Shown: positions 7,198 to 27,350 of the stretch, piece after piece
How the letters are laid out: each line of letters starts with the position of its first letter
Numbering within the stretch: the stretch's first letter is position 1
Origin: Chloroflexota bacterium
GTDB taxonomy: Bacteria; Chloroflexota; Anaerolineae; Aggregatilineales; Ch27
Assembly: GCA_019873685.1 (NCBI GenBank)
Contig: JAIOAT010000036.1
Location: 1 to 37,361 of the forward strand
DNA length: 37,361 nt
Direction: 5' to 3'
Translations under genes and position numbers: made by a program
Notes under the pieces: model-generated
Database searches by the model: none
Told to the model about the DNA's origin: nothing
Seen by the model: the letters and a program-made list of their open reading frames with translations, nothing else

Positions 7198-7293
7198 CGG
7201 GAGCGGATGGGAGTCGAACCCACCGCGGACTGCTCAGCGCAGCCCGCCACCAGTTTTGAAGACTGGGGCATCCACCGGGACACATCCGCCCCC
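7198..7293 (-). tRNA. selC: tRNA-Sec (anticodon TCA)
   Basis: Selenocysteine tRNA, charged with Ser and converted by SelA, then delivered to in-frame UGA codons by SelB. The minus-strand sequence folds into the special bacterial tRNA-Sec shape. The acceptor stem has 8 bp (7293-7286 with 7206-7199, one G-T). The D stem has 6 bp (GTGTCC/GGATGC) with a CGGT loop. The anticodon stem is CCAGT/ACTGG with loop CTTCAAA and anticodon TCA at 7259-7257. A long 9-bp variable arm (GCGGGCTGC/GCAGTCCGC, one wobble, loop GCTGA) is followed by a T arm with TTCGACT. The discriminator is G at 7198. The next bases are CCT, so CCA is not encoded. At 96 nt it is of the expected large size. No selA, selB or selD lies in the window. 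Confidence 0.95.
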
Positions 7294-19008: not shown

Positions 19009-19362
19009 CTACGGATGCCGCACGTGGGCCAGGCTGCGGTCGAGCAGATCGCGGACGTGCTCGTCATCCAGGCGGTAGTAGACCTGCCGCCCGCGCCGCT
19101 GCCGCCGTACCAGCCGCCATTCGCGCAGCGTGCGCAACTGGTGGGAAACCGCTGACTGCTCCATCCCCAGCAGCATGGTCAGATCATTGACGCACAGCTC
19201 GGCATCAGCCAGGGCGGTGATCAGCCGCACACGGGTCGGGTCAGCCAGCGCTTTGAACAGGTTGGCGATCCGGGCGGCTGTTTCACCGTCGACCAGCGTC
19301 GCTCTGGCGCGGGCCTGCGGGGTAAGGGAAGACACTTCATGAGGATGGGGCACGGCACACAC
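19009..19362 (-). CDS. ArsR/SmtB-family repressor, zinc-sensor type
   Basis: 117 residues. Winged helix: ANLFKALADPTRVRLITALADAELCVNDLTMLLGMEQSAVSHQLRTLREWRLVRRQRRGRQVYYRLDD, the classic ArsR signature. The alpha-3 Cys pair of ArsR/CadC (CxC) is reduced to one Cys (ELCVNDL). However, the alpha-5 metal site of SmtB/CzrA is complete: Asp100, His102, His113 and His116 match the D-x-H-x10-H-x2-E/H pattern. That points to a zinc (or cobalt/nickel) de-repressed regulator binding across the dimer. Start GTG at 19362, with AGGAG 4-5 nt upstream; a GTG three codons later is possible. No metal transporter is adjacent, so the target is unknown. Confidence 0.88.
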   Translation of the reverse strand: MCAVPHPHEVSSLTPQARARATLVDGETAARIANLFKALADPTRVRLITALADAELCVNDLTMLLGMEQSAVSHQLRTLREWRLVRRQRRGRQVYYRLDDEHVRDLLDRSLAHVRHP

Positions 19363-19556: not shown

Positions 19557-20810
19557 TCAGGTGCGGTAGTGGCCGTTGATCGAGACGTAATCGTGGCTCA
19601 GGTCGCACGTCCATACGGTGCAGGACGCCGCGCCCAGGCCCAGGTCGAGCCGCGCACTGACCTCCGGCGCGGCCATGATCGCGGCGGCGGCGTCTTCGCT
19701 GTAGGCGGTCGGGCTGCCATCCGCCACCAGTTGCAGGCCGTCGGCGCAATCGCTCTCGCCCGGCGCGATCCACAGGGCCAGCCGGCCAGCGTCCAGCAGG
19801 ACACCGGCGCGCCCCGCCGCCGCCAGGATGCGCCCCCAATTGGCGTCGCCCCCATAGAAGGCTGTCTTGACCAGCGGCGACGTGGCGATGGCCATGGCCA
19901 CCTGCCGCGCCGCCTCTTCATCCGGCGCACCGCTGACGTGCAGGGTGATAAAGCGCGTCGCGCCCTCGCCATCCATGACGATATCTTTGGCCAATTCGGT
20001 GCAGACTGCCGTCAGCGCCGCCTGGAAAGCGGCCAGGCCATCCCCGTCGGTGACGGTCACGCCGCTGGCGCCGTTGGCCAGGGCCAGCACGGTGTCGTTG
20101 GTGCTCATGTCGCCGTCGACGACGATCCGGTTGAAGCTGAGCCGGCTGGCGGCGCTCAGGGCAGCCTGTAGCGCGGCGGGACTCAGCGCGGCGTCAGTGG
20201 CGATCACGGCCAGCATGGTCGCCATATTGGGGGCGATCATGCCCGCGCCCTTGGCGATCGCGGCGATCGTGTAGTCGCCGTCCGGCGTCTGCACGCGGAC
20301 ACTGGCCGTCTTGGGCACGGTGTCGGTGGTCAGGATCGCATCAGCGGCGGCGGCCCAGCCATCCGGAGCCAGGTTCCCGGCCAGGGCGCTGATGCCCGCC
20401 GCGATCCTCTCCATCGGCAGGGGCACGCCGATCACGCCGGTGGAGAGCACAAAGACATCCTCCGCCCGGCAGCCCAGGGCGGCGGCGACCAGCGCCGCGC
20501 TCGCCGCCGCATCCGCCAGGCCCTGTGCGCCGGTGCAGGCGTTGGCCACGCCGGAGTTGACGACGATAGCACGCATCCCCGCCGGATTGGCCGCCAGGTG
20601 AGTCTGATCCAGCAACACGGGAGCAGCCTTGACCTGGTTAGTGGTGAAGACGCCCGCCGCCGCGCAGGGAACCGCGCTGGCGATCAGGGCCATGTCGCGG
20701 CGTCCGGACTTGCGGATGCCCGCCGGGACGCCGGCGACGGTGAAGCCGCGTACAGGGGCGATGATCGTTTCTACGGTGCTGATCGCGTAATCGGCCATCG
20801 TCAGGGTCAT
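19557..20810 (-). CDS. argJ: Bifunctional glutamate N-acetyltransferase / ornithine acetyltransferase
   Basis: 417 residues. Transfers acetyl from N-acetylornithine to glutamate, recycling the acetyl group of arginine synthesis (and in some members also uses acetyl-CoA). The self-cleavage motif is KGAGMIAPNMATML (187-200), with Thr198 the expected N-terminal nucleophile of the beta chain. Other signatures are FTTNQVKAAPV, NSGVANACTG, STGVIGVPLPMERI, DGDMSTNDT and VKTAFYGGDANWGRI, and the C-terminus CDLSHDYVSINGHYRT fits the family. Full length. GAGGAGAA lies upstream of the ATG at 20810. Last gene of the argC-argB-argD-argJ operon. Presence of ArgJ implies the cyclic pathway, so no ArgE is needed. 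Confidence 0.95.
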   Translation of the reverse strand: MTLTMADYAISTVETIIAPVRGFTVAGVPAGIRKSGRRDMALIASAVPCAAAGVFTTNQVKAAPVLLDQTHLAANPAGMRAIVVNSGVANACTGAQGLADAAASAALVAAALGCRAEDVFVLSTGVIGVPLPMERIAAGISALAGNLAPDGWAAAADAILTTDTVPKTASVRVQTPDGDYTIAAIAKGAGMIAPNMATMLAVIATDAALSPAALQAALSAASRLSFNRIVVDGDMSTNDTVLALANGASGVTVTDGDGLAAFQAALTAVCTELAKDIVMDGEGATRFITLHVSGAPDEEAARQVAMAIATSPLVKTAFYGGDANWGRILAAAGRAGVLLDAGRLALWIAPGESDCADGLQLVADGSPTAYSEDAAAAIMAAPEVSARLDLGLGAASCTVWTCDLSHDYVSINGHYRT

Positions 20811-20908: not shown

Positions 20909-22102
20909 CTATCCCCGCAGGATTGCATCCAGCTTCTCCAGCGCCTCATCCACGTGCACCTGCTCCAGGATCAGCGGCGGAACCAGCCGTAGCACGTTTG
21001 GCCCGGCGCTGACCATGATCAGGCCGTGGGCGTAGCCCGCGCTGACCACCTCCGCCGCCGGGACGGTCAGCTCGACGCCGATCATCAGCCCGCGCCCGCG
21101 CACCTCGACAATCTGCGGGGCGCGCAGGGCCGCCAGCCCATCCCGCAGGGCCGCGCCCATTGCTTCCACATGGCGCAGGAAAGCCGGATCGCTGATCCGT
21201 TCCAGCACGACCCTGGCGGCGCTGGCGACCAGCGGCCCGCCGCCAAAGGTGCTGCCATGGTCGCCAACCTCGATGGCAGCGGCGATCCGGTCGCTGATCA
21301 ACGCCGCGCCGATCGGCAGGCCGCCCGCCAGCGGCTTGGCCAGCGTCATGATATCGGGCGTCACGCCGGATGCCTGATGCGCCCACAGCATCCCGGTGCG
21401 GCCCATGCCACACTGCACCTCATCGAAGATCAGGACGGCGTCGTGGGCGTCGCACAGGGCGCGCAGGCCCTGCAGGAATTCTGGCGTTGCCACGTGAACC
21501 CCGCCCTCGCCCTGCACCGGCTCGACAATCACGGCGCAGGTATCCGGCCCGATGATCCCGGCGGCGGCTTCCAGATCGTTGAACGGCGCGATCGTCACGT
21601 CTGGCAGCAGCGGGCGGAAGGGGTCCTGGTACCTGGGGCGCGGCGTGACGGAGAGCGCCCCGATCGTGCGCCCGTGGAAACCATTCTCAAAGGCCACCAG
21701 GCCGGTCTTGCCCGCGCCGGGATGATTGGCGTAGACCCATTTGCGAGCCAGCTTGATCGCGGCTTCGTTGGCTTCCGCGCCGGAGTTGCAGAAGAAGACC
21801 TTCCCGGCGAAGCTCAACGCGCACAGCCGGGCCGCCAGTTCTGCCTGGGGCGCAGTCAGGTACAGGTTGGAAACATGAATCAGCCGCGCCGCCTGCTGGC
21901 TGATGGCGGCGAGCAGCGCCGGGTCGCCATAGCCCAGCGCGTTGACCGCGATTCCGGCGGCCAGGTCCAGGTAACGGCGGCCCTCAGAGTCATAGAGGTA
22001 GACGCCTTCGCCATGAGTCAGCACGAAGGGAGCGCGGGTATAGGTGTGCAGGACGCATTGTGCATCCAGATCAAGAACGGCAGGCATAGTGGTCAGAGTC
22101 AT
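20909..22102 (-). CDS. argD: Acetylornithine aminotransferase
   Basis: 397 residues, PLP-dependent class III aminotransferase. Converts N-acetylglutamate semialdehyde plus glutamate to N-acetylornithine plus 2-oxoglutarate. Landmarks: SNLYLTAPQAELAARL, FFCNSGAEANEAAIKLARK (phosphate-binding SGAEA), FENGFHGRTIGALSVT, VIVEPVQGEGG, FDEVQCGMGRTG (Asp227) and the Schiff-base Lys256 in TLAKPLAGGLPIGA. The SNxY and QCGMGRTG forms favour ArgD over ornithine or GABA aminotransferases; the operon context settles it. It may also serve lysine synthesis (DapC activity), as ArgD often does. GGAGAAG lies about 9 nt before the ATG. Confidence 0.95.
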   Translation of the reverse strand: MTLTTMPAVLDLDAQCVLHTYTRAPFVLTHGEGVYLYDSEGRRYLDLAAGIAVNALGYGDPALLAAISQQAARLIHVSNLYLTAPQAELAARLCALSFAGKVFFCNSGAEANEAAIKLARKWVYANHPGAGKTGLVAFENGFHGRTIGALSVTPRPRYQDPFRPLLPDVTIAPFNDLEAAAGIIGPDTCAVIVEPVQGEGGVHVATPEFLQGLRALCDAHDAVLIFDEVQCGMGRTGMLWAHQASGVTPDIMTLAKPLAGGLPIGAALISDRIAAAIEVGDHGSTFGGGPLVASAARVVLERISDPAFLRHVEAMGAALRDGLAALRAPQIVEVRGRGLMIGVELTVPAAEVVSAGYAHGLIMVSAGPNVLRLVPPLILEQVHVDEALEKLDAILRG

Positions 22103-22132: not shown

Positions 22133-22987
22133 CTAACGGGCGGCGGCGCTGGCGGACGCAGCATTATACGCGCTGGCAGTCGCCGCCAGCGGCGAGGCAT
22201 CACCGTAGAACACCGTCCCACCGCCGCTTTGCAGCCCGGCCAGATCGGTGATCACCGCCTGAGGGATGCCCAGGGCGACGGCGTGCAGGGCGGTCTGTAC
22301 CTTGGGGATCATGCCGCCGCTGATCACGCCGCTGGCGATCAGGGCCTGCGCCTGCGCCGCGCTGAGGGAGGGTTGCGGGCGGCCATCAACCAGCACGGCG
22401 CTGACATTGGTCAGGAAGACGATCCGCGTCGCGCCGATAGCTTCGGCAATGGCTGCGGCGGCATGGTCGGCATTGACGTTGTACGCCCCGCCATCGTCAC
22501 CCAGGGCCAGCGGCGCGATCACCGGTATGACGCCCGCCGCCAGCAGCCCCAGCAGGACATCCGCCCGTACAGCGGTGATCGTCCCCACGCGGCCCAGATC
22601 GCCGCCGGGATGCTGGAGCCTGACGCCGCGCAACAGGCCGCGGTCCGTCCCGCTGAGGCCCTGCGCCTCAACGCCCGCCGCGATGAGCTGGCGCACCAGC
22701 CGCTTGTTGACGCTCCCGCACAGCACCATCTCCACCACGGTCAGCGTGGCCTCGTCGGTCACGCGCAGGCCGTCCACCCACTGCGGCACAATGCCCAGCG
22801 CCGTCTGAAGCTGCCCGATCTCCTTGCCGCCGCCATGCACAATCACCGCCGGGCGGTCAAGAGCAGCCACATACGCGGCCAGATTGCGGAGAAAGTCCGG
22901 GTCGTCGATGTCGTTGCCGCCGATCTTGAGCAGGATCGGTGGGGCAGCGAAAGGGGAAGGCGGGGTCGGATGGGTGGCTGTGGTCAT
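22133..22987 (-). CDS. argB: Acetylglutamate kinase
   Basis: 284 residues, amino-acid kinase family. Phosphorylates N-acetylglutamate, the usual control step of arginine synthesis. Landmarks: ILLKIGGN (Lys21), VIVHGGGKEI (49-57, glycine-rich substrate loop), GLRVTDEATLTVVEMVLCGSVNK, LSGTDRGLL, YNVNADHAAAAIAEAIGA and SGGMIPKVQTALHAV, which are standard ArgB blocks. The N-terminus has only a short Pro-rich segment before the first strand and lacks the extra helix characteristic of arginine-inhibited hexameric ArgB. The enzyme may therefore not be feedback-inhibited, consistent with control at the RNA level; this is inference. It lies 44 nt after argC and 30 nt before argD. Confidence 0.95.
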   Translation of the reverse strand: MTTATHPTPPSPFAAPPILLKIGGNDIDDPDFLRNLAAYVAALDRPAVIVHGGGKEIGQLQTALGIVPQWVDGLRVTDEATLTVVEMVLCGSVNKRLVRQLIAAGVEAQGLSGTDRGLLRGVRLQHPGGDLGRVGTITAVRADVLLGLLAAGVIPVIAPLALGDDGGAYNVNADHAAAAIAEAIGATRIVFLTNVSAVLVDGRPQPSLSAAQAQALIASGVISGGMIPKVQTALHAVALGIPQAVITDLAGLQSGGGTVFYGDASPLAATASAYNAASASAAAR

Positions 22988-23031: not shown

Positions 23032-24051
23032 CTAGAGCAGGCCGGTTGTTTCCGGCAGGCCAAACATCAGGTTGAAGTTCTGTACAGCCTGGCTGGCAGC
23101 GCCTTTAAGCAGATTGTCGATTACAGAGACGATCACGACGTGCGTGGCAGTCACGGGGGTGACCGAGATCGCGCAGATGTTCAGCCGCTGGGCGTGACGC
23201 AGCGTGACCAGCTGCCCCGCCGGGAGGACGTTCACCAGCGGCTCAGCGACATAGGTTTCTTCGTAGAGGCTCTGCAGGCCCGCCGGAGGCCAGGGCGCGG
23301 CCAGGGTGACATAGATCGTCGCCAGCAGGCCGCGGTCGACTGGCAGCAGATGCGGAGAGAAGATCAGCGGCCCGGCCTGGCCGTCCAGCCTGGCAATCTC
23401 TTGCTCGATCTCGCCGGTGTGACGGTGGACACGCCCGATGTTGTACGGGGAGAAGTTGCCGAACACCTCCACGAAGTGGGTGCTGGCTTTGGGCGTCCGC
23501 CCCGCGCCGGAAACGCCCGACTTCGCATCGACGATGATCGGCGCGCCGGGGGCCAGGGCATGCGCCGCCAGCAGCGGGTAGAGGCCCAGCAGGGTGGCGG
23601 TCGGGTAGCAGCCGGGGTTGGCCACCACCTGCGCCCCGGCGATGGCCGCCCGGTAAATCTCCGGCAGGCCGTAGGGGACGGGCAACAGTTCCGGGTTGGG
23701 ATGGGCCGCGCCGTACCACTGCTCAAACGCTTCCGCCGTGTCCAACCGCAGATCGGCGGAGAGGTCGATCACCCTGGTTCCGGCGGCCTTCGCCTGTGCG
23801 GCAACCGGGGCGGAAGCGGTATGTGGCAGGGCCAGGAATACAGCGTCCACGCTGGTCGGGTCCGCCGCCTCATGGGGGAGATAGGTCAGGGCCGTGCCGG
23901 GAACCGGCTGTCCGGCGTCCTGGGTTGAGGTGGCAAAGACCAGCCGGACAGCAGGATGGGCGGCCAGCAGCCGGATCAGTTCCGCGCCGGTGTAGCCAGC
24001 CGCGCCGTAGACGCCAACGTTGATGGAGGGGTGAGTGGTCGATTCAGTCAT
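23032..24051 (-). CDS. argC: N-acetyl-gamma-glutamyl-phosphate reductase
   Basis: 339 residues. NADPH-dependent reduction of N-acetylglutamyl phosphate to the semialdehyde. The Rossmann start is NVGVYGAAGYTGAELIRLLAAHP (11-33). The active-site Cys148 is in ANPGCYPTATLLGLYPL. FLALPHTAS, VIDLSADLRL, and the AKSGVSGAGRTPK and FSPHLLPVDRGLLATIYV blocks all fit type 1 ArgC. First structural gene of the arg operon; the ATG at 24051 is 24 nt past the attenuator T tract. The spacing to that terminator means most transcripts must read through it to express the operon. Confidence 0.95.
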   Translation of the reverse strand: MTESTTHPSINVGVYGAAGYTGAELIRLLAAHPAVRLVFATSTQDAGQPVPGTALTYLPHEAADPTSVDAVFLALPHTASAPVAAQAKAAGTRVIDLSADLRLDTAEAFEQWYGAAHPNPELLPVPYGLPEIYRAAIAGAQVVANPGCYPTATLLGLYPLLAAHALAPGAPIIVDAKSGVSGAGRTPKASTHFVEVFGNFSPYNIGRVHRHTGEIEQEIARLDGQAGPLIFSPHLLPVDRGLLATIYVTLAAPWPPAGLQSLYEETYVAEPLVNVLPAGQLVTLRHAQRLNICAISVTPVTATHVVIVSVIDNLLKGAASQAVQNFNLMFGLPETTGLL

Positions 24052-24074
24052 CCTGCTTGTGAGCCGTTCCTGTC

Positions 24075-24104
24075 AAACAAAAATCCCCCCGGTCTGGGGG
24101 GATT
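24075..24104 (-). terminator. Attenuator terminator of the arg operon
   Basis: On the minus strand, AATCCCCCC (24104-24096) pairs with GGGGGGATT (24090-24082) over 9 perfect bp with loop AGACC, and is followed by TTTTTGTTT. It lies between the leader peptide (stop at 24142) and argC (start at 24051), the place an attenuator must occupy. Confidence 0.88.
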
Positions 24105-24169
24105 AAGGGTCGTTTGCCGGGCGTACCGTTCCCAGGCGACACTATCCCTGCCAGACCGGGTCGGTCTGG
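24088..24169 (-). promoter_or_regulatory. Antiterminator and anti-antiterminator of the arg leader
   Basis: Reading the minus strand, segment 1 is CCAGACCG (24169-24162), segment 2 is CGGTCTGG (24158-24151) and segment 3 is CCAGACCG (24097-24090), inside the terminator. Segments 1 and 2 can pair (8 bp). Segment 2 can instead pair with segment 3, extended to 10 bp as CCCGGTCTGG (24160-24151) with CCAGACCGGG (24097-24088). The second pairing destroys the terminator. Segments 1 and 2 lie in the last codons of the leader peptide, directly after its Arg codons. A ribosome waiting there covers segment 1 and frees segment 2. A ribosome at the stop codon covers segment 2 and lets the terminator form. 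The geometry is that of the trp and his attenuators; function is inferred. Confidence 0.82.
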
Positions 24170-24225
24170 GGGCGACGGCGCGGACGGCGCAGTTCAGCCA
24201 CCGGGATAGCGATCAGCAGGGTCAT
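24142..24225 (-). CDS. Arginine leader peptide (27 residues)
   Basis: ATG at 24225 to TAG at 24142, translating as MTLLIAIPVAEL then RRPRRR then PQTDPVWQG. Five of six codons at positions 13-18 are Arg (CGC CGT CCG CGC CGT CGC; the CCG is Pro). A GGAG lies 11 nt upstream of the ATG, a somewhat long but workable spacing. The stop is 38 nt before the terminator stem. The peptide itself is expected to be a sensor: its translation speed through the Arg run reports charged tRNA-Arg. It overlaps the pairing segments described at 24088-24169, which is what separates it from a chance small ORF. Upstream is a promoter (24264-24292); downstream is argC. Confidence 0.82.
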   Translation of the reverse strand: MTLLIAIPVAELRRPRRRPQTDPVWQG

Positions 24226-24263
24226 CCGGGCAAATACTCCACTGCGAAAAAGAGGATGCCTAC

Positions 24264-24292
24264 AGGGTAGCAGCCTGCCAGGAGCGCGTCAA
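24264..24292 (-). promoter_or_regulatory. Promoter of the arg leader and operon
   Basis: On the minus strand, TTGACG (24292-24287), 17-nt spacer, TACCCT (24269-24264). Expected start near 24257, about 30 nt before the leader-peptide ATG. The -10 is a moderate match. Confidence 0.5.
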
Positions 24293-24304: not shown

Positions 24305-24835
24305 AGTTCAGTTATCCCGCCGAAAATCGGCCCCTCTGCTTGTGCAGGTCGTCCAAGAGACAGCCTTGAAAGAACAACCACCGGCGGCGGTTCACATGAA
24401 TCGGTTCAGAGAGCACCTTCGTAACTACTACTACTTTAGTCCTATAGGGATAGTCAGTTTCTTGACAGACAATAATAAATGTGTTTTGCTGAGATAAAGA
24501 GGTTCCAACCGCCGGGATCGGCCCAGGCCGCGCTCATAGGGCGACATCGCCGCTGCCATCGGAGCCTGCCGCTATGCGTGACGGGGTGCCTAACGGCACA
24601 ATTGCCCCGCTTTGCCCCTGTAGTAGTGCGGACGCGCTTGCTGCGCCCCGCGTCGTTTCCCGCTCGTAAGCTCTCTGACGTGCCAGTGACGGTCGTGGAT
24701 TGAGCGATTCACATCGGCTCACAGGGTGACAGTGGATGTCCGGCTGCCCGGTGATACATGGGCCGCTGAAAGGCAACACCCTGCCCTGTCCTCCCCGGTA
24801 ACTGGCTACCAGTGACGACTTCAGGAGAATTCAGT
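24305..24835. other. Long intergenic region before the DUF2589 cluster
   Basis: About 530 bp without a gene I can support. It holds an AT-rich patch at 24420-24495 with a (CTA)n run, the palindrome CCTATAGG, and a TTGACA at 24462-24467 that lacks a good -10 at 17 nt. A forward promoter for the gene at 24836 probably lies here, but I cannot place it. Reading frames in this stretch have atypical composition and no ribosome sites. Confidence 0.45.
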
Positions 24836-25444
24836 ATGCCCAGAGCAGTGACCGAACTCAGGCAAATCCCTTTCGGGTATCTGATCGGCGCACCATTGAA
24901 GGCGGCGGTGGAAGCGCAGGCCCTGGCCGCCCGCACTACGGTGGAGTTCATCGAGAAGGTCGGCTTTAAGGAGCAGGATAGCGACATCGGTTCGATCTTC
25001 AACGATCTCACCCAGGACGCCAACACCGGCGAGATTCGCAACATTACCTTTACCTACAAGAAATTGGATGAGGATGGCGTCATCAAGACTGTTGAGCTGA
25101 CCGTACCGATCCTGTCGATCGTCCCCATCCCCTTCATCCGCCTGGATGACATCTCGATCGACTTCACCGCCAAGCTGACCGACACGATCGCCAGCACCAC
25201 CAAGAGCGACTTCAAGTTCTCCACCGATGCCAAGGGCAAGTTCAAGGCCTGGTGGTCGCCCGTCAGCATGGAGTTCCGCACCTCGGTTTCCTACCAGAAT
25301 ACGCGGGAGAGCGCGTCCAAGTACGTGCGCGAATACACCATGAATGTCAAGGTGCACGCCGTGCAGGATAGCCTGCCGGCTGGCCTGGAGCGCGTGCTGG
25401 ACATTCTGGAGCAATCGATCAAGGAGAAGCCGCCGTCATCGTAA
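24836..25444 (+). CDS. DUF2589-family protein, copy 1
   Basis: 202 residues, cytoplasmic (no signal peptide or membrane segment). The N-terminus LRQIPFGYLIGAPLKAAVEAQALAARTTVEFIEKVGF (8-44) is the hallmark of DUF2589 proteins. Strands follow: IRNITFTYKKLDEDG (67-81), VELTVPILSIVPIPFIRLDDISIDFTAKL (86-114), a charged loop, then MEFRTSVSYQN, YTMNVKVHA, and a C-terminal amphipathic helix starting SLPAGLERVLDILEQSI. The fold looks like a helix plus beta-sandwich. The family has no established function. AGGAG is 9 nt before the ATG at 24836; an in-frame GTG at 24812 is less likely. First of four closely spaced forward genes; copy 2 is at 26736. Confidence 0.8.
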   Translation: MPRAVTELRQIPFGYLIGAPLKAAVEAQALAARTTVEFIEKVGFKEQDSDIGSIFNDLTQDANTGEIRNITFTYKKLDEDGVIKTVELTVPILSIVPIPFIRLDDISIDFTAKLTDTIASTTKSDFKFSTDAKGKFKAWWSPVSMEFRTSVSYQNTRESASKYVREYTMNVKVHAVQDSLPAGLERVLDILEQSIKEKPPSS

Positions 25445-25524
25445 CCGGGCTGACCGGGCCGGGATCGGCAGGGGTGCGCCGCGCCGGGACACCCTGGCTG
25501 CGGCCAGGCGGACAGGAGGAGCTG

Positions 25525-25878
25525 ATGAGCGCTCAGGCGCTGCCGGAAGGACTCAGCGCGCTGGCGGCTTTTGTCCTCAAGACGGTGGAAGAGCTGCGGG
25601 CCATGACCGGCGCGCAGGCCGCCGCAGCGGAACTGGCCGACGTGCGCATCCGCGAGATCACCTTCTCCATCCCCTACGATCCCGGCCCCGGAGCGGCGGC
25701 GCTGAGCGCCGCTGAACGCCCGTCGTTGACGCTCCAGCCGGCCATCCCCATCCTGCCTCTGCCGCAGGCGGTAGAGGTGCTCAAGCTGCTGCCTGCCCAT
25801 GTGGTCTTTGAGCGGGCCAGGCTGATCCGGGTTCCAGAGCAACGCCTGGCCCGGCTGGAGATCACCATTCGCCTTTGA
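25525..25878 (+). CDS. Small DUF2589-cluster companion protein
   Basis: 117 residues, MSAQALPEGLSALAAFVLKT onward. A helical N-terminus (about 5-45) is followed by strand segments IREITFSIPYDPGPG, SLTLQPAIPILPLPQAVEVL and VVFERARLIRVPEQRLARLEITIRL. The PxxPILPLP turn and the alternating hydrophobic strand before it resemble the VPILSIVPIP core strand of the DUF2589 proteins, so it may be a reduced relative; that is inference. ACAGGAGGAGCTG precedes the ATG. It lies 80 nt after copy 1 and 44 nt before the next gene. No named family recognised. Confidence 0.6.
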   Translation: MSAQALPEGLSALAAFVLKTVEELRAMTGAQAAAAELADVRIREITFSIPYDPGPGAAALSAAERPSLTLQPAIPILPLPQAVEVLKLLPAHVVFERARLIRVPEQRLARLEITIRL

Positions 25879-25922
25879 GAGCCGTTGGAACCGGGCTGCC
25901 ACACCGGCGCCCTGGAGGGATT

Positions 25923-26693
25923 ATGGCAGAACTCACACAGGTGCTGGGAACCATCCTCAAAGATGTGGCCCACTCACGGGTGATCAGTGACGCCTTCTCC
26001 CGCGACATCAGCGTTGACTACGCCAAAGACCCGATTCTGGTGAGCTTTCCGGTGCCCCGCGTGGAGATCCGCGAGGCGTCTATCCAGCTCAAGTTCGCCG
26101 TCAACGCCGTGCAGCAGGGGGAGGTCGATCGGGAGGGCATTGCCAGGGATCGCCTGTCGTCGCTGGCCAGCGCCCTCAGCCAGCGTGTCTACCAGGGCCT
26201 GATCCTGGATAGCCCACAGCGCGATCAACTGCTGGCCATGCTGGAAGAAAAAGGGCTGGATGTGCCGGCCCTGCTCGCCGCCCAGATCACGCAGGTCACC
26301 ACGAAACAGTTCCCGCTGGTCCTGGCAGCGGTGCAGGGTAAACCGCAGGAACTGGTCCGCCAGTTAGAAGCCGCCCTGCAGGAAAGCGTGCGTAACAACG
26401 AGGCGCTGTGGGCCATCCTCAAAAAGAGCACCCGCGTGCAGGACCTGCGCGAGCGCGTCAGCGCCGCCGTCGCCCCCGCTGTCAACGACTATGTCGCCGG
26501 GGTCAGCCAGGCTATTGATTCGGCTGGCCGGGAAGGGCTGCGCGTGGATGTCGCTGTGACCCGCAACGAGCTGGCTGATACGCCTGAAAGCGTGCTTTCC
26601 TTTGTCAGCATCGTGACTGAAATCCGCAATTACGCATGGACACAGGTGGGCGGCACAGAAGAACAGCCCATCTGGCGCTTGCAGGCCGAATAG
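25923..26693 (+). CDS. DUF2589-cluster companion protein with long helical region
   Basis: 256 residues, cytoplasmic. A helical start (MAELTQVLGTILKDVAHSRVISDAF) leads to the segment ILVSFPVPRVEIREASIQLKFAVNAV (38-63). Its VPxPxxxIxEAxIxLxF pattern (43-58) parallels the VPIPFIRLDDISIDF segment of the DUF2589 protein at 24836. Residues 75-200 are helical and charged (LASALSQRVYQGLILDSPQRDQLLAMLEEKG, LVRQLEAALQESVRNNEALWAILKKSTRVQDLRERV). A C-terminal beta part (RVDVAVTRNEL, VLSFVSIVTEIRNYAW) ends the protein. GGAGGG precedes the ATG. I assign no family; the shared strand suggests it assembles with the DUF2589 proteins. Confidence 0.65.
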   Translation: MAELTQVLGTILKDVAHSRVISDAFSRDISVDYAKDPILVSFPVPRVEIREASIQLKFAVNAVQQGEVDREGIARDRLSSLASALSQRVYQGLILDSPQRDQLLAMLEEKGLDVPALLAAQITQVTTKQFPLVLAAVQGKPQELVRQLEAALQESVRNNEALWAILKKSTRVQDLRERVSAAVAPAVNDYVAGVSQAIDSAGREGLRVDVAVTRNELADTPESVLSFVSIVTEIRNYAWTQVGGTEEQPIWRLQAE

Positions 26694-26735
26694 CAGGCGC
26701 GCACCGACCCTTTTCAGGAGAGAGGCGGCACATCT

Positions 26736-27350
26736 ATGGCAGGTACAGTCCAGGGAATCCGGTCTTTGCCCTTAGCTGATCTGATCGGCGCGACCCTGGT
26801 GGCGATCGTCCAGGCCGATACCGAAGCCGCCAGGGCCACGCTGGACTTTATCGAGACGGTCGGTTTCGTCCCACCCGCCCAGGAGCAAACCGCCGAAGGC
26901 GGCATCGCCGCTGGCAACCTGCGCATGGCGGAGTTCCGCTACAAGAAGCTGGACGAAAACAACGAGGTAGCGGAATTCGTGGCGACGGTGCCGGTGCTGG
27001 CCCTGGTGCCCATCCCGGCGCTGCAGGTCAAAGACGCCCGCTTCAAGCTCGCCGCCCAGATCACGGACATCAGCCAGGAAAAACCGGCGGCCACCCCGGC
27101 GCCAGCGCCAGCGACGCCGACGGCTCTGGCAGCGGCGAACGTCGCCGCCATCAGCCGCCTGCAGCCGCTCCGTTACCAGCTGCTGGCCAAGCCTGCCGCC
27201 GCTTCCGGCGCCAAAGAACAGGAAGTGCGCGGCACCTTCCACATCGAGCTGGAGGTGACCATGGGCCAGGCGGATCTGCCGCTGGGGATGGAAAAGCTGT
27301 TCAACCTGATGGATCAGGCCATTCAGGATCGCAAGCCAGCCGAAACCTGA
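26736..27350 (+). CDS. DUF2589-family protein, copy 2
   Basis: 204 residues. It aligns with copy 1 throughout: IRSLPLADLIGATLVAIVQADTEAARATLDFIETVGF (8-44), MAEFRYKKLDENNEV (64-78) and VATVPVLALVPIPALQVKDARFKLAAQITD (82-111), ending in LPLGMEKLFNLMDQAIQDRKP (181-201). It differs by an Ala/Pro-rich insert (about 117-135, KPAATPAPAPATPTAL) in place of the charged loop. AGGAGAGAGG precedes the ATG. With copy 1 it suggests a heteromeric pair; the intervening two genes are probably part of the same unit. The long hairpin at 27371-27425 may end transcription after it. Confidence 0.8.
   Translation: MAGTVQGIRSLPLADLIGATLVAIVQADTEAARATLDFIETVGFVPPAQEQTAEGGIAAGNLRMAEFRYKKLDENNEVAEFVATVPVLALVPIPALQVKDARFKLAAQITDISQEKPAATPAPAPATPTALAAANVAAISRLQPLRYQLLAKPAAASGAKEQEVRGTFHIELEVTMGQADLPLGMEKLFNLMDQAIQDRKPAET

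Follow-up and report, generated by a model that had tools for sequence, protein, structure and literature searches.

Only a few amino acids are known to be served by ribosome-mediated transcription attenuation, which has been regarded as centered on the Proteobacteria, and the control of arginine genes is taught as repression by ArgR. In fungi, arginine biosynthesis is controlled by an upstream ORF, that of the arginine attenuator peptide (arg-2/CPA1), as proposed for the locus described here, although the fungal system is a eukaryotic translational control in which free arginine arrests the nascent chain. Among bacteria, leaders for His, Leu, Thr and Trp are represented in Rfam and those for Ile/Val and Phe have been characterized elsewhere, with arginine absent from the list and a gamma-proteobacterial origin suggested (PMC3766115). 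According to PMC2965389 (2010), leader-peptide systems were not known beyond the Proteobacteria and Actinobacteria before its Firmicutes finding. In Actinobacteria, RNA elements for arginine were looked for but not found by PMC1262725, which cites arginine T-boxes elsewhere. The enterobacterial orf34-speF leader of Salmonella (SpeFL) likewise has a short ORF with consecutive Arg codons, at which low-arginine pausing alters downstream folding, but there are only two such codons and no intrinsic terminator switch, and the system controls ornithine decarboxylase via Rho, sequestration of the ribosome binding site and RNase G (PMC6386406). The Arg codons of S. aureus rbfL likewise sense arginine supply, but this 8-residue peptide uses rare AGA/AGG codons and occlusion of the ribosome binding site, and its target is a biofilm regulator that is switched off by low arginine (PMC13009471). 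The cysteine leader uORFC-8-2, located 5' of cysS, is likewise a newer specificity for ribosome-mediated attenuation that was proposed from comparative genomics, although it concerns Cys codons, a tRNA synthetase gene and the Rhodobacterales (PMC8632094).

The current study examines a leader upstream of argC within a 37,361-nt stretch of DNA from a Chloroflexota bacterium (contig JAIOAT010000036.1 of assembly GCA_019873685.1), hereafter the window. The leader resembles the trp, his, leu, thr, ilv and phe attenuators of Proteobacteria and others in its run of regulatory codons, its protector, antiterminator and terminator, its place before the operon and its expected sign of control, whereas its codons and operon are those of arginine and its host belongs to the Chloroflexota. 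ArgR/AhrC repression and arginine T-boxes perform the same job of arginine-responsive control of arg genes, but the former is a protein repressor and the latter a tRNA-binding RNA, and here neither an ArgR nor a T-box at argC was found. The original prediction for this DNA was a leader-peptide attenuator controlling an arginine operon. Given the conserved Arg codon run, pairing, terminator and spacing described below, we consider it very probable that the argC leader is a classical ribosome-mediated transcription attenuator sensing charged tRNA-Arg.

Results

The argC gene begins with an ATG at 24051 and is the first gene of an argC-argB-argD-argJ operon (Table 1). Between it and the leader ORF sits the intrinsic terminator, with a 9-bp stem, a T-rich tail and a folding energy of -16.7 kcal/mol that none of 200 shuffles equaled. 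Both this stem and the 27-codon peptide with five Arg in a block of six codons (positions 13, 14, 16, 17 and 18 of the ORF) are present as predicted. The predicted promoter fared less clearly, as TTGACG and TACCCT can be read upstream, but a strict sigma-70 scan called no promoter at the window leader and the -10 element is weak. The TTGAC-17-TAnnnT arrangement does recur 5' of many relatives' leaders, and 41 of 54 leaders reach a promoter score of at least 8 out of 12; since 226 of 1080 mono-shuffles do so as well, the evidence for a promoter is only moderate. Shine-Dalgarno sequences 5' of the leader ATG are weak. At the opposite end of the operon, an ArsR-family regulator (19009-19362, minus strand) lies immediately 3' of argJ and possibly belongs to the same transcription unit.

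Table 1. Coordinates of the putative attenuator and of the arginine operon in the window.
Feature	Position	Strand	Basis
Candidate promoter, TTGACG (24292-24287), 17 nt, TACCCT (24269-24264)	24264..24292	-	Direct reading
Leader peptide ORF, 27 codons, MTLLIAIPVAELRRPRRRPQTDPVWQG then stop	24142..24225	-	Direct reading; counterpart ORFs in relatives
Arg regulatory codons CGC CGT CCG CGC CGT CGC	24172..24189	-	Direct reading; Arg block common to leaders
Segment 1 (protector strand), CCAGACCG	24162..24169	-	1:2 hairpin, -17.5 kcal/mol
Segment 2 (antiterminator 5' strand), CGGTCTGG	24151..24158	-	Folding; covariation with terminator arm
Segment 3 (antiterminator 3' strand), CCAGACCG, within terminator arm and loop	24090..24097	-	Folding; covariation
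Intrinsic terminator hairpin AATCCCCCC-AGACC-GGGGGGATT, then TTTGTTTG	24082..24104	-	Terminator scan; folding
argC, N-acetyl-gamma-glutamyl-phosphate reductase	23032..24051	-	TIGR01850, 358.6 bits vs cut-off 233.6
argB, acetylglutamate kinase	22133..22987	-	TIGR00761 over cut-off
argD, acetylornithine aminotransferase	20909..22102	-	TIGR00707 over cut-off
argJ, bifunctional ornithine acetyltransferase / N-acetylglutamate synthase	19557..20810	-	PF01960, NF003802, TIGR00120 over cut-off

The three predicted segments behave as mutually exclusive partners when truncated RNAs of the window are folded computationally. An RNA beginning at 24162, as if a ribosome occupied the last Arg codons, is predicted to form the 10-bp segment 2:3 antiterminator without a terminator (-39.7 kcal/mol), this helix being the minimum free energy structure of 24162-24078, while an RNA beginning at 24150, with segment 2 masked, folds into the terminator. 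The originally proposed geometry, in which a ribosome on the Arg block frees segment 2 to pair over 10 bp and one covering segment 2 allows the terminator to form, is thereby reproduced in silico. The whole 207-nt RNA (24257-24051), the folding of which had been suggested as a check, is not unusually stable (z -1.27), although the exclusive pairings within it hold; the signal of the leader is these pairings and their conservation, rather than overall RNA stability.

At equilibrium and with the full terminator present, the terminator is favored in 34 of 54 leaders and the two states are separated in only 20; it must therefore matter in which order the RNA is made, as it does in the trp attenuator, and according to these models the switch must be kinetic in those 34. 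Equilibrium terminator probabilities were replaced for this reason by a co-transcriptional partition function covering the RNA up to the terminator loop. With a ribosome on the Arg block, the antiterminator probability exceeds 0.7 at one or more positions of the block in 48 of the 54 leaders (mean of maxima 0.90), whereas without a ribosome it averages 0.27; its value of zero with a ribosome at the stop codon is by construction of the calculation. Shuffling the sequence 5' of segment 2 raises the no-ribosome mean to 0.62, the natural sequence being lower in 45/54 leaders (Wilcoxon p 7.6e-8, uncorrected for relatedness of the leaders), and the protector therefore looks selected overall. This suppression is not seen in families f6 and f40, and the pairing of segment 1 is weak in some families. 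The distance from the last Arg codon to the segment 2 core (median 13 nt, interquartile range 9-17) would let a ribosome stalled on the Arg block mask segment 1 while segment 2 stays free. The distance from segment 2 to the stop codon exceeds 20 nt in some families, in which a ribosome at that codon would perhaps cover the segment just partly. Several leaders (L007, L009, L012, L037 and similar) also contain, within the ORF and about 10 nt after the segment 1:2 hairpin, a T run (GGGATTTTTGCG) that resembles a hairpin-stabilized RNA polymerase pause site.

ArgC was found in 53 of the 61 relatives within the order; phylum-wide, 169 of 301 genomes had it at E<=1e-60. Loss of the Arg codon run or of the pairing segments in relatives had been set beforehand as a test, and both are conserved: an Arg-rich ORF of 10-50 codons, with at least 4 Arg in 8 codons and followed by a terminator, was present at 43 of 46 order-level argC loci compared to 2 of 460 dinucleotide shuffles, although the relatives in this and the other conservation comparisons are not independent of each other. 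This count scores L012 as a miss, which carries the leader when read in the correct orientation, while L011 and the named loci L041 and L045, which are alike 5' of argC, have none. The same rule applied to other residues detected only 0-4 argC loci each. Relatives retain the run of Arg codons, the terminator, the spacing and, through compensatory changes, the pairing of the antiterminator, and records of named carriers come from Aggregatilineales, Anaerolineae, Thermoflexus sp. and Ardenticatenia, among others. As CGN codons arise easily in GC-rich DNA, such sequence could conceivably yield both Arg codons and a terminator by chance, and just such a match was encountered inside mutS2 of the source genome and discarded (L002); chance is nevertheless excluded for the argC leader by the shuffle comparison, by the covariation below and by its retention in AT-richer relatives such as L014.

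Beyond the order, the leader occurs in families f10, f11, f15 and f18 of the class, and in a weak form in f14. Outside the class, it was recognized by eye in f40 and f67 (L145, L149), in genomes that look Herpetosiphon- and Roseiflexus-like; f40 is presumably Herpetosiphon, G223 is presumably Roseiflexus sp. RS-1, and G175, which lacks the leader, is presumably Chloroflexus aurantiacus. No such leader was present at the argC loci sampled from other phyla (Bacteroidetes-labelled, Planctomycetes, Solimonas and others), among which two weak matches (L087, L088) look like the ends of upstream genes and were rejected. At three loci (L038, L039, L047), a metallophosphoesterase gene (about 1510-2970) separates the leader from argC, and the leader stays at the operon head approximately 1,470 nt 5' of argC; judging from this arrangement, the gene has apparently been captured into arginine control.

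The sequence of segment 2 varies by family (GGTCTGG, TGAGGTC, GGGTCCGG, GAGGTTCGG, GTGTGTC and others), and the terminator arm changes along with it. Paired with its own arm, segment 2 averages -19.8 kcal/mol compared to -15.3 +/- 0.39 with permuted arms, and with one representative per family, none of 20000 arm permutations was as good as the own pairing. Both sides have changed in 8 of the 10 pairs of this helix. Among 45 distinct anchored fragments, 85.8% of cells are paired versus 69.1% after shuffling, with a covariation score of 0.520 versus 0.213 when shuffled and 0.005-0.159 when slid, but these figures lean upward because the best helix served as the anchor of the fragments, with cores picked by best pairing. 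The arm permutation test is cleaner, because own and permuted partners were optimized alike. A single MAFFT alignment of whole leaders was discarded in favor of the anchored fragments, as it misregistered segment 2 between families, and therefore no covariance model was built.

Codon usage within the Arg blocks is highly biased as well. CGT and CGC make up 277 of 322 leader Arg codons (86%) compared to 266 of 469 (57%) in the argC genes of the same loci (Fisher p 3e-19, with codons that are not independent), the share of CGG falls from 28% in argC genes to 4% in leaders and other less used Arg codons are avoided too. The first two positions (CG) are constant and the third varies. In most bacteria, a single tRNA-Arg reads both CGU and CGC. 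According to Elf and Ehrenberg, attenuators favor the codons of the first isoacceptor to lose its charge, and such selective charging has been verified in the Arg family (PMC1183508). Among the leaders outside the class, L149 (G199) has a block of CGA rather than CGY codons, which suggests a different sensed isoacceptor or decoding property.

The CGY bias also helps to discriminate between uncharged tRNA and the peptide itself as the cause of stalling. An Arg-rich peptide might arrest its ribosome because it binds ornithine or free arginine, or because it is positively charged, in the manner of SpeFL, TnaC or the fungal peptide. The leader peptide is certainly polybasic, the final Arg of the block is followed by Pro in 28 of the 54 leaders, and S. 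aureus rbfL pauses at its Arg codons even in vitro (PMC13009471). However, the N- and C-terminal residues vary by family with only the Arg block in common, the strong codon bias points to a tRNA isoacceptor, and an arrest on the block triggered by arginine would switch on a biosynthetic operon at high arginine, all of which render nascent-peptide arrest quite unlikely.

Other operons of the source genome (G000) were sampled gene by gene rather than exhaustively, and a second Arg-rich leader was found 5' of argG (L192, near 234 kb of G000:C1), with the peptide MSIAWVDSSVSRLRRRIRRPHTGLAENFGLR (then stop), a terminator starting CCCCAGACC and a segment 2 core, GGTCTGG, that is the same as that of the argC leader. 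Counterparts exist in G001 (L191), G005 (L189) and G004 (L181), and L187 and L188 have Arg-rich ORFs that are candidates, whereas none of 27 argF/pyrB-type loci has an Arg-rich leader. Of 14 hisG loci in relatives, 6 are preceded by His-rich leaders with terminators (L210, L215, L218, L220, L223, L224), which from their sequences are classical his attenuators outside the usual phyla. In the same order, 7 of 8 trpE loci scanned have T-boxes over the Rfam gathering score (L193, L196, L197, L201, L203, L206, L207), while trpE itself (PF04715) had no match in G000, G001 or G002. Given the His-rich leaders at hisG and the T-boxes at trpE, the leader residue matches its operon. Such a match would not be expected of an attenuator that merely couples general translation speed to transcription, with Arg codons that have no sensing role. 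The dominance of the terminator at equilibrium in most leaders would suit such a device and Arg codons could serve as generic slow codons, but the residue agrees with the operon (argC and argG have R, hisG has H) and CGG and other less used Arg codons are shunned, making this explanation very unlikely.

Known RNA classes do not account for the leader either. At threshold, no Rfam 15 family matched the argC leader; the best weak match was Phe_leader (RF01859), at 22.3 bits against a cut-off of 55. The speF leader (RF00518) gave no match, and the present leader, which has an intrinsic terminator, sits 5' of argC. A metabolite riboswitch or T-box beside which the short ORF is incidental might be entertained given the T-boxes at trpE of relatives and the arginine T-boxes elsewhere in bacteria (cited in PMC1262725). 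This possibility is strongly disfavored, as no Rfam family reached its gathering score at argC in 20 sources, T-box RF00230 included, with a library that does detect the T-boxes at relatives' trpE, and the leader alignment contains no conserved aptamer-like block.

The distribution of ArgR was surveyed using PF01316, which had no match in the source genome and was positive in 9 of 14 controls. Within the order, only family f8 has genomes above the cut-off (6 of the 61), and their matches are partial, starting at profile position 9 or 24 and ending at 68 in frames of 106-112 aa; these are probably not ArgR. In the phylum, 67 of 301 genomes pass, all outside the class and in families such as f23, f33, f36, f38, f49 and f58, often with the match close to argC. 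No leader was present at the argC upstream regions sampled from two of these ArgR-bearing families, f36 (L172) and f38 (L164). Among the genomes sampled, leader and full-length ArgR were never seen together, and ArgR was not found in the leader-bearing families beyond one weak, partial case.

Discussion

The anatomy of the argC leader, its mutually exclusive folds and their covarying conservation are established from sequence, and at this level every testable feature of a classical ribosome-mediated attenuator is present. From these features, we infer that the leader is translated, that ribosomes stall in it on uncharged tRNA-Arg and that readthrough rises in arginine shortage. The attenuator would thus adjust argCBDJ to the amount of charged tRNA-Arg available, and the isoacceptor sensed is probably the one that decodes CGU and CGC. 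At low arginine, the leading ribosome would stall on the Arg block and cover segment 1, leaving segment 2 to pair with the emerging 5' arm and loop of the terminator and permitting readthrough into argC. When arginine is plentiful, the ribosome would reach the stop codon beside segment 2, or leave so that segments 1 and 2 pair; with segment 2 unavailable in either case, the terminator would form and transcription would end near 24080. It is also conceivable, albeit improbable, that in addition to the readout of tRNA-Arg charging, the nascent polybasic Arg block, the released peptide or the attenuator RNA acts itself, by self-slowing in the exit tunnel or in trans, to create a dual arginine sensor that replaces ArgR regulon-wide in two Chloroflexota classes. 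A precedent for action in trans is peTrpL, which reportedly acts in this way.

With regard to novelty, the mechanism is known, while the arginine specificity and the lineage appear to be new. The original prediction considered the leader a potential new class, which is too strong, since the mechanism is of the classical trp/his type, but the new amino acid specificity stands. Its accompanying statement that no well-characterized bacterial arginine attenuator is known has to be qualified, as Arg-codon leaders control Salmonella speF and S. aureus rbf by other routes (PMC6386406, PMC13009471). Among switches of this type, the argC leader appears to be the first for the biosynthesis of arginine; no bacterial counterpart was found in the open-access literature, although a 2010 attenuation survey was outside this scope and priority is not certain. 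The arginine attenuator has been kept through most of one class and into some Chloroflexia-like genomes, and it is present at two arg operons of one genome. It occurs in lineages where ArgR was not found, and thus speaks to arginine regulation in ArgR-less Chloroflexota. Furthermore, leaders that strongly favor one codon pair of a six-codon amino acid offer a natural setting in which to test the theory that tRNA isoacceptors are charged selectively.

Elsewhere in the window, a divergent cluster on the plus strand (24812-27350) encodes two DUF2589 proteins (24812-25444 and 26736-27350) with two unannotated ORFs between them. A tRNA-Sec gene is present on the minus strand at 7199-7293 (Rfam RF01852, 75.7 bits), and selenocysteine decoding is therefore likely in the source genome.
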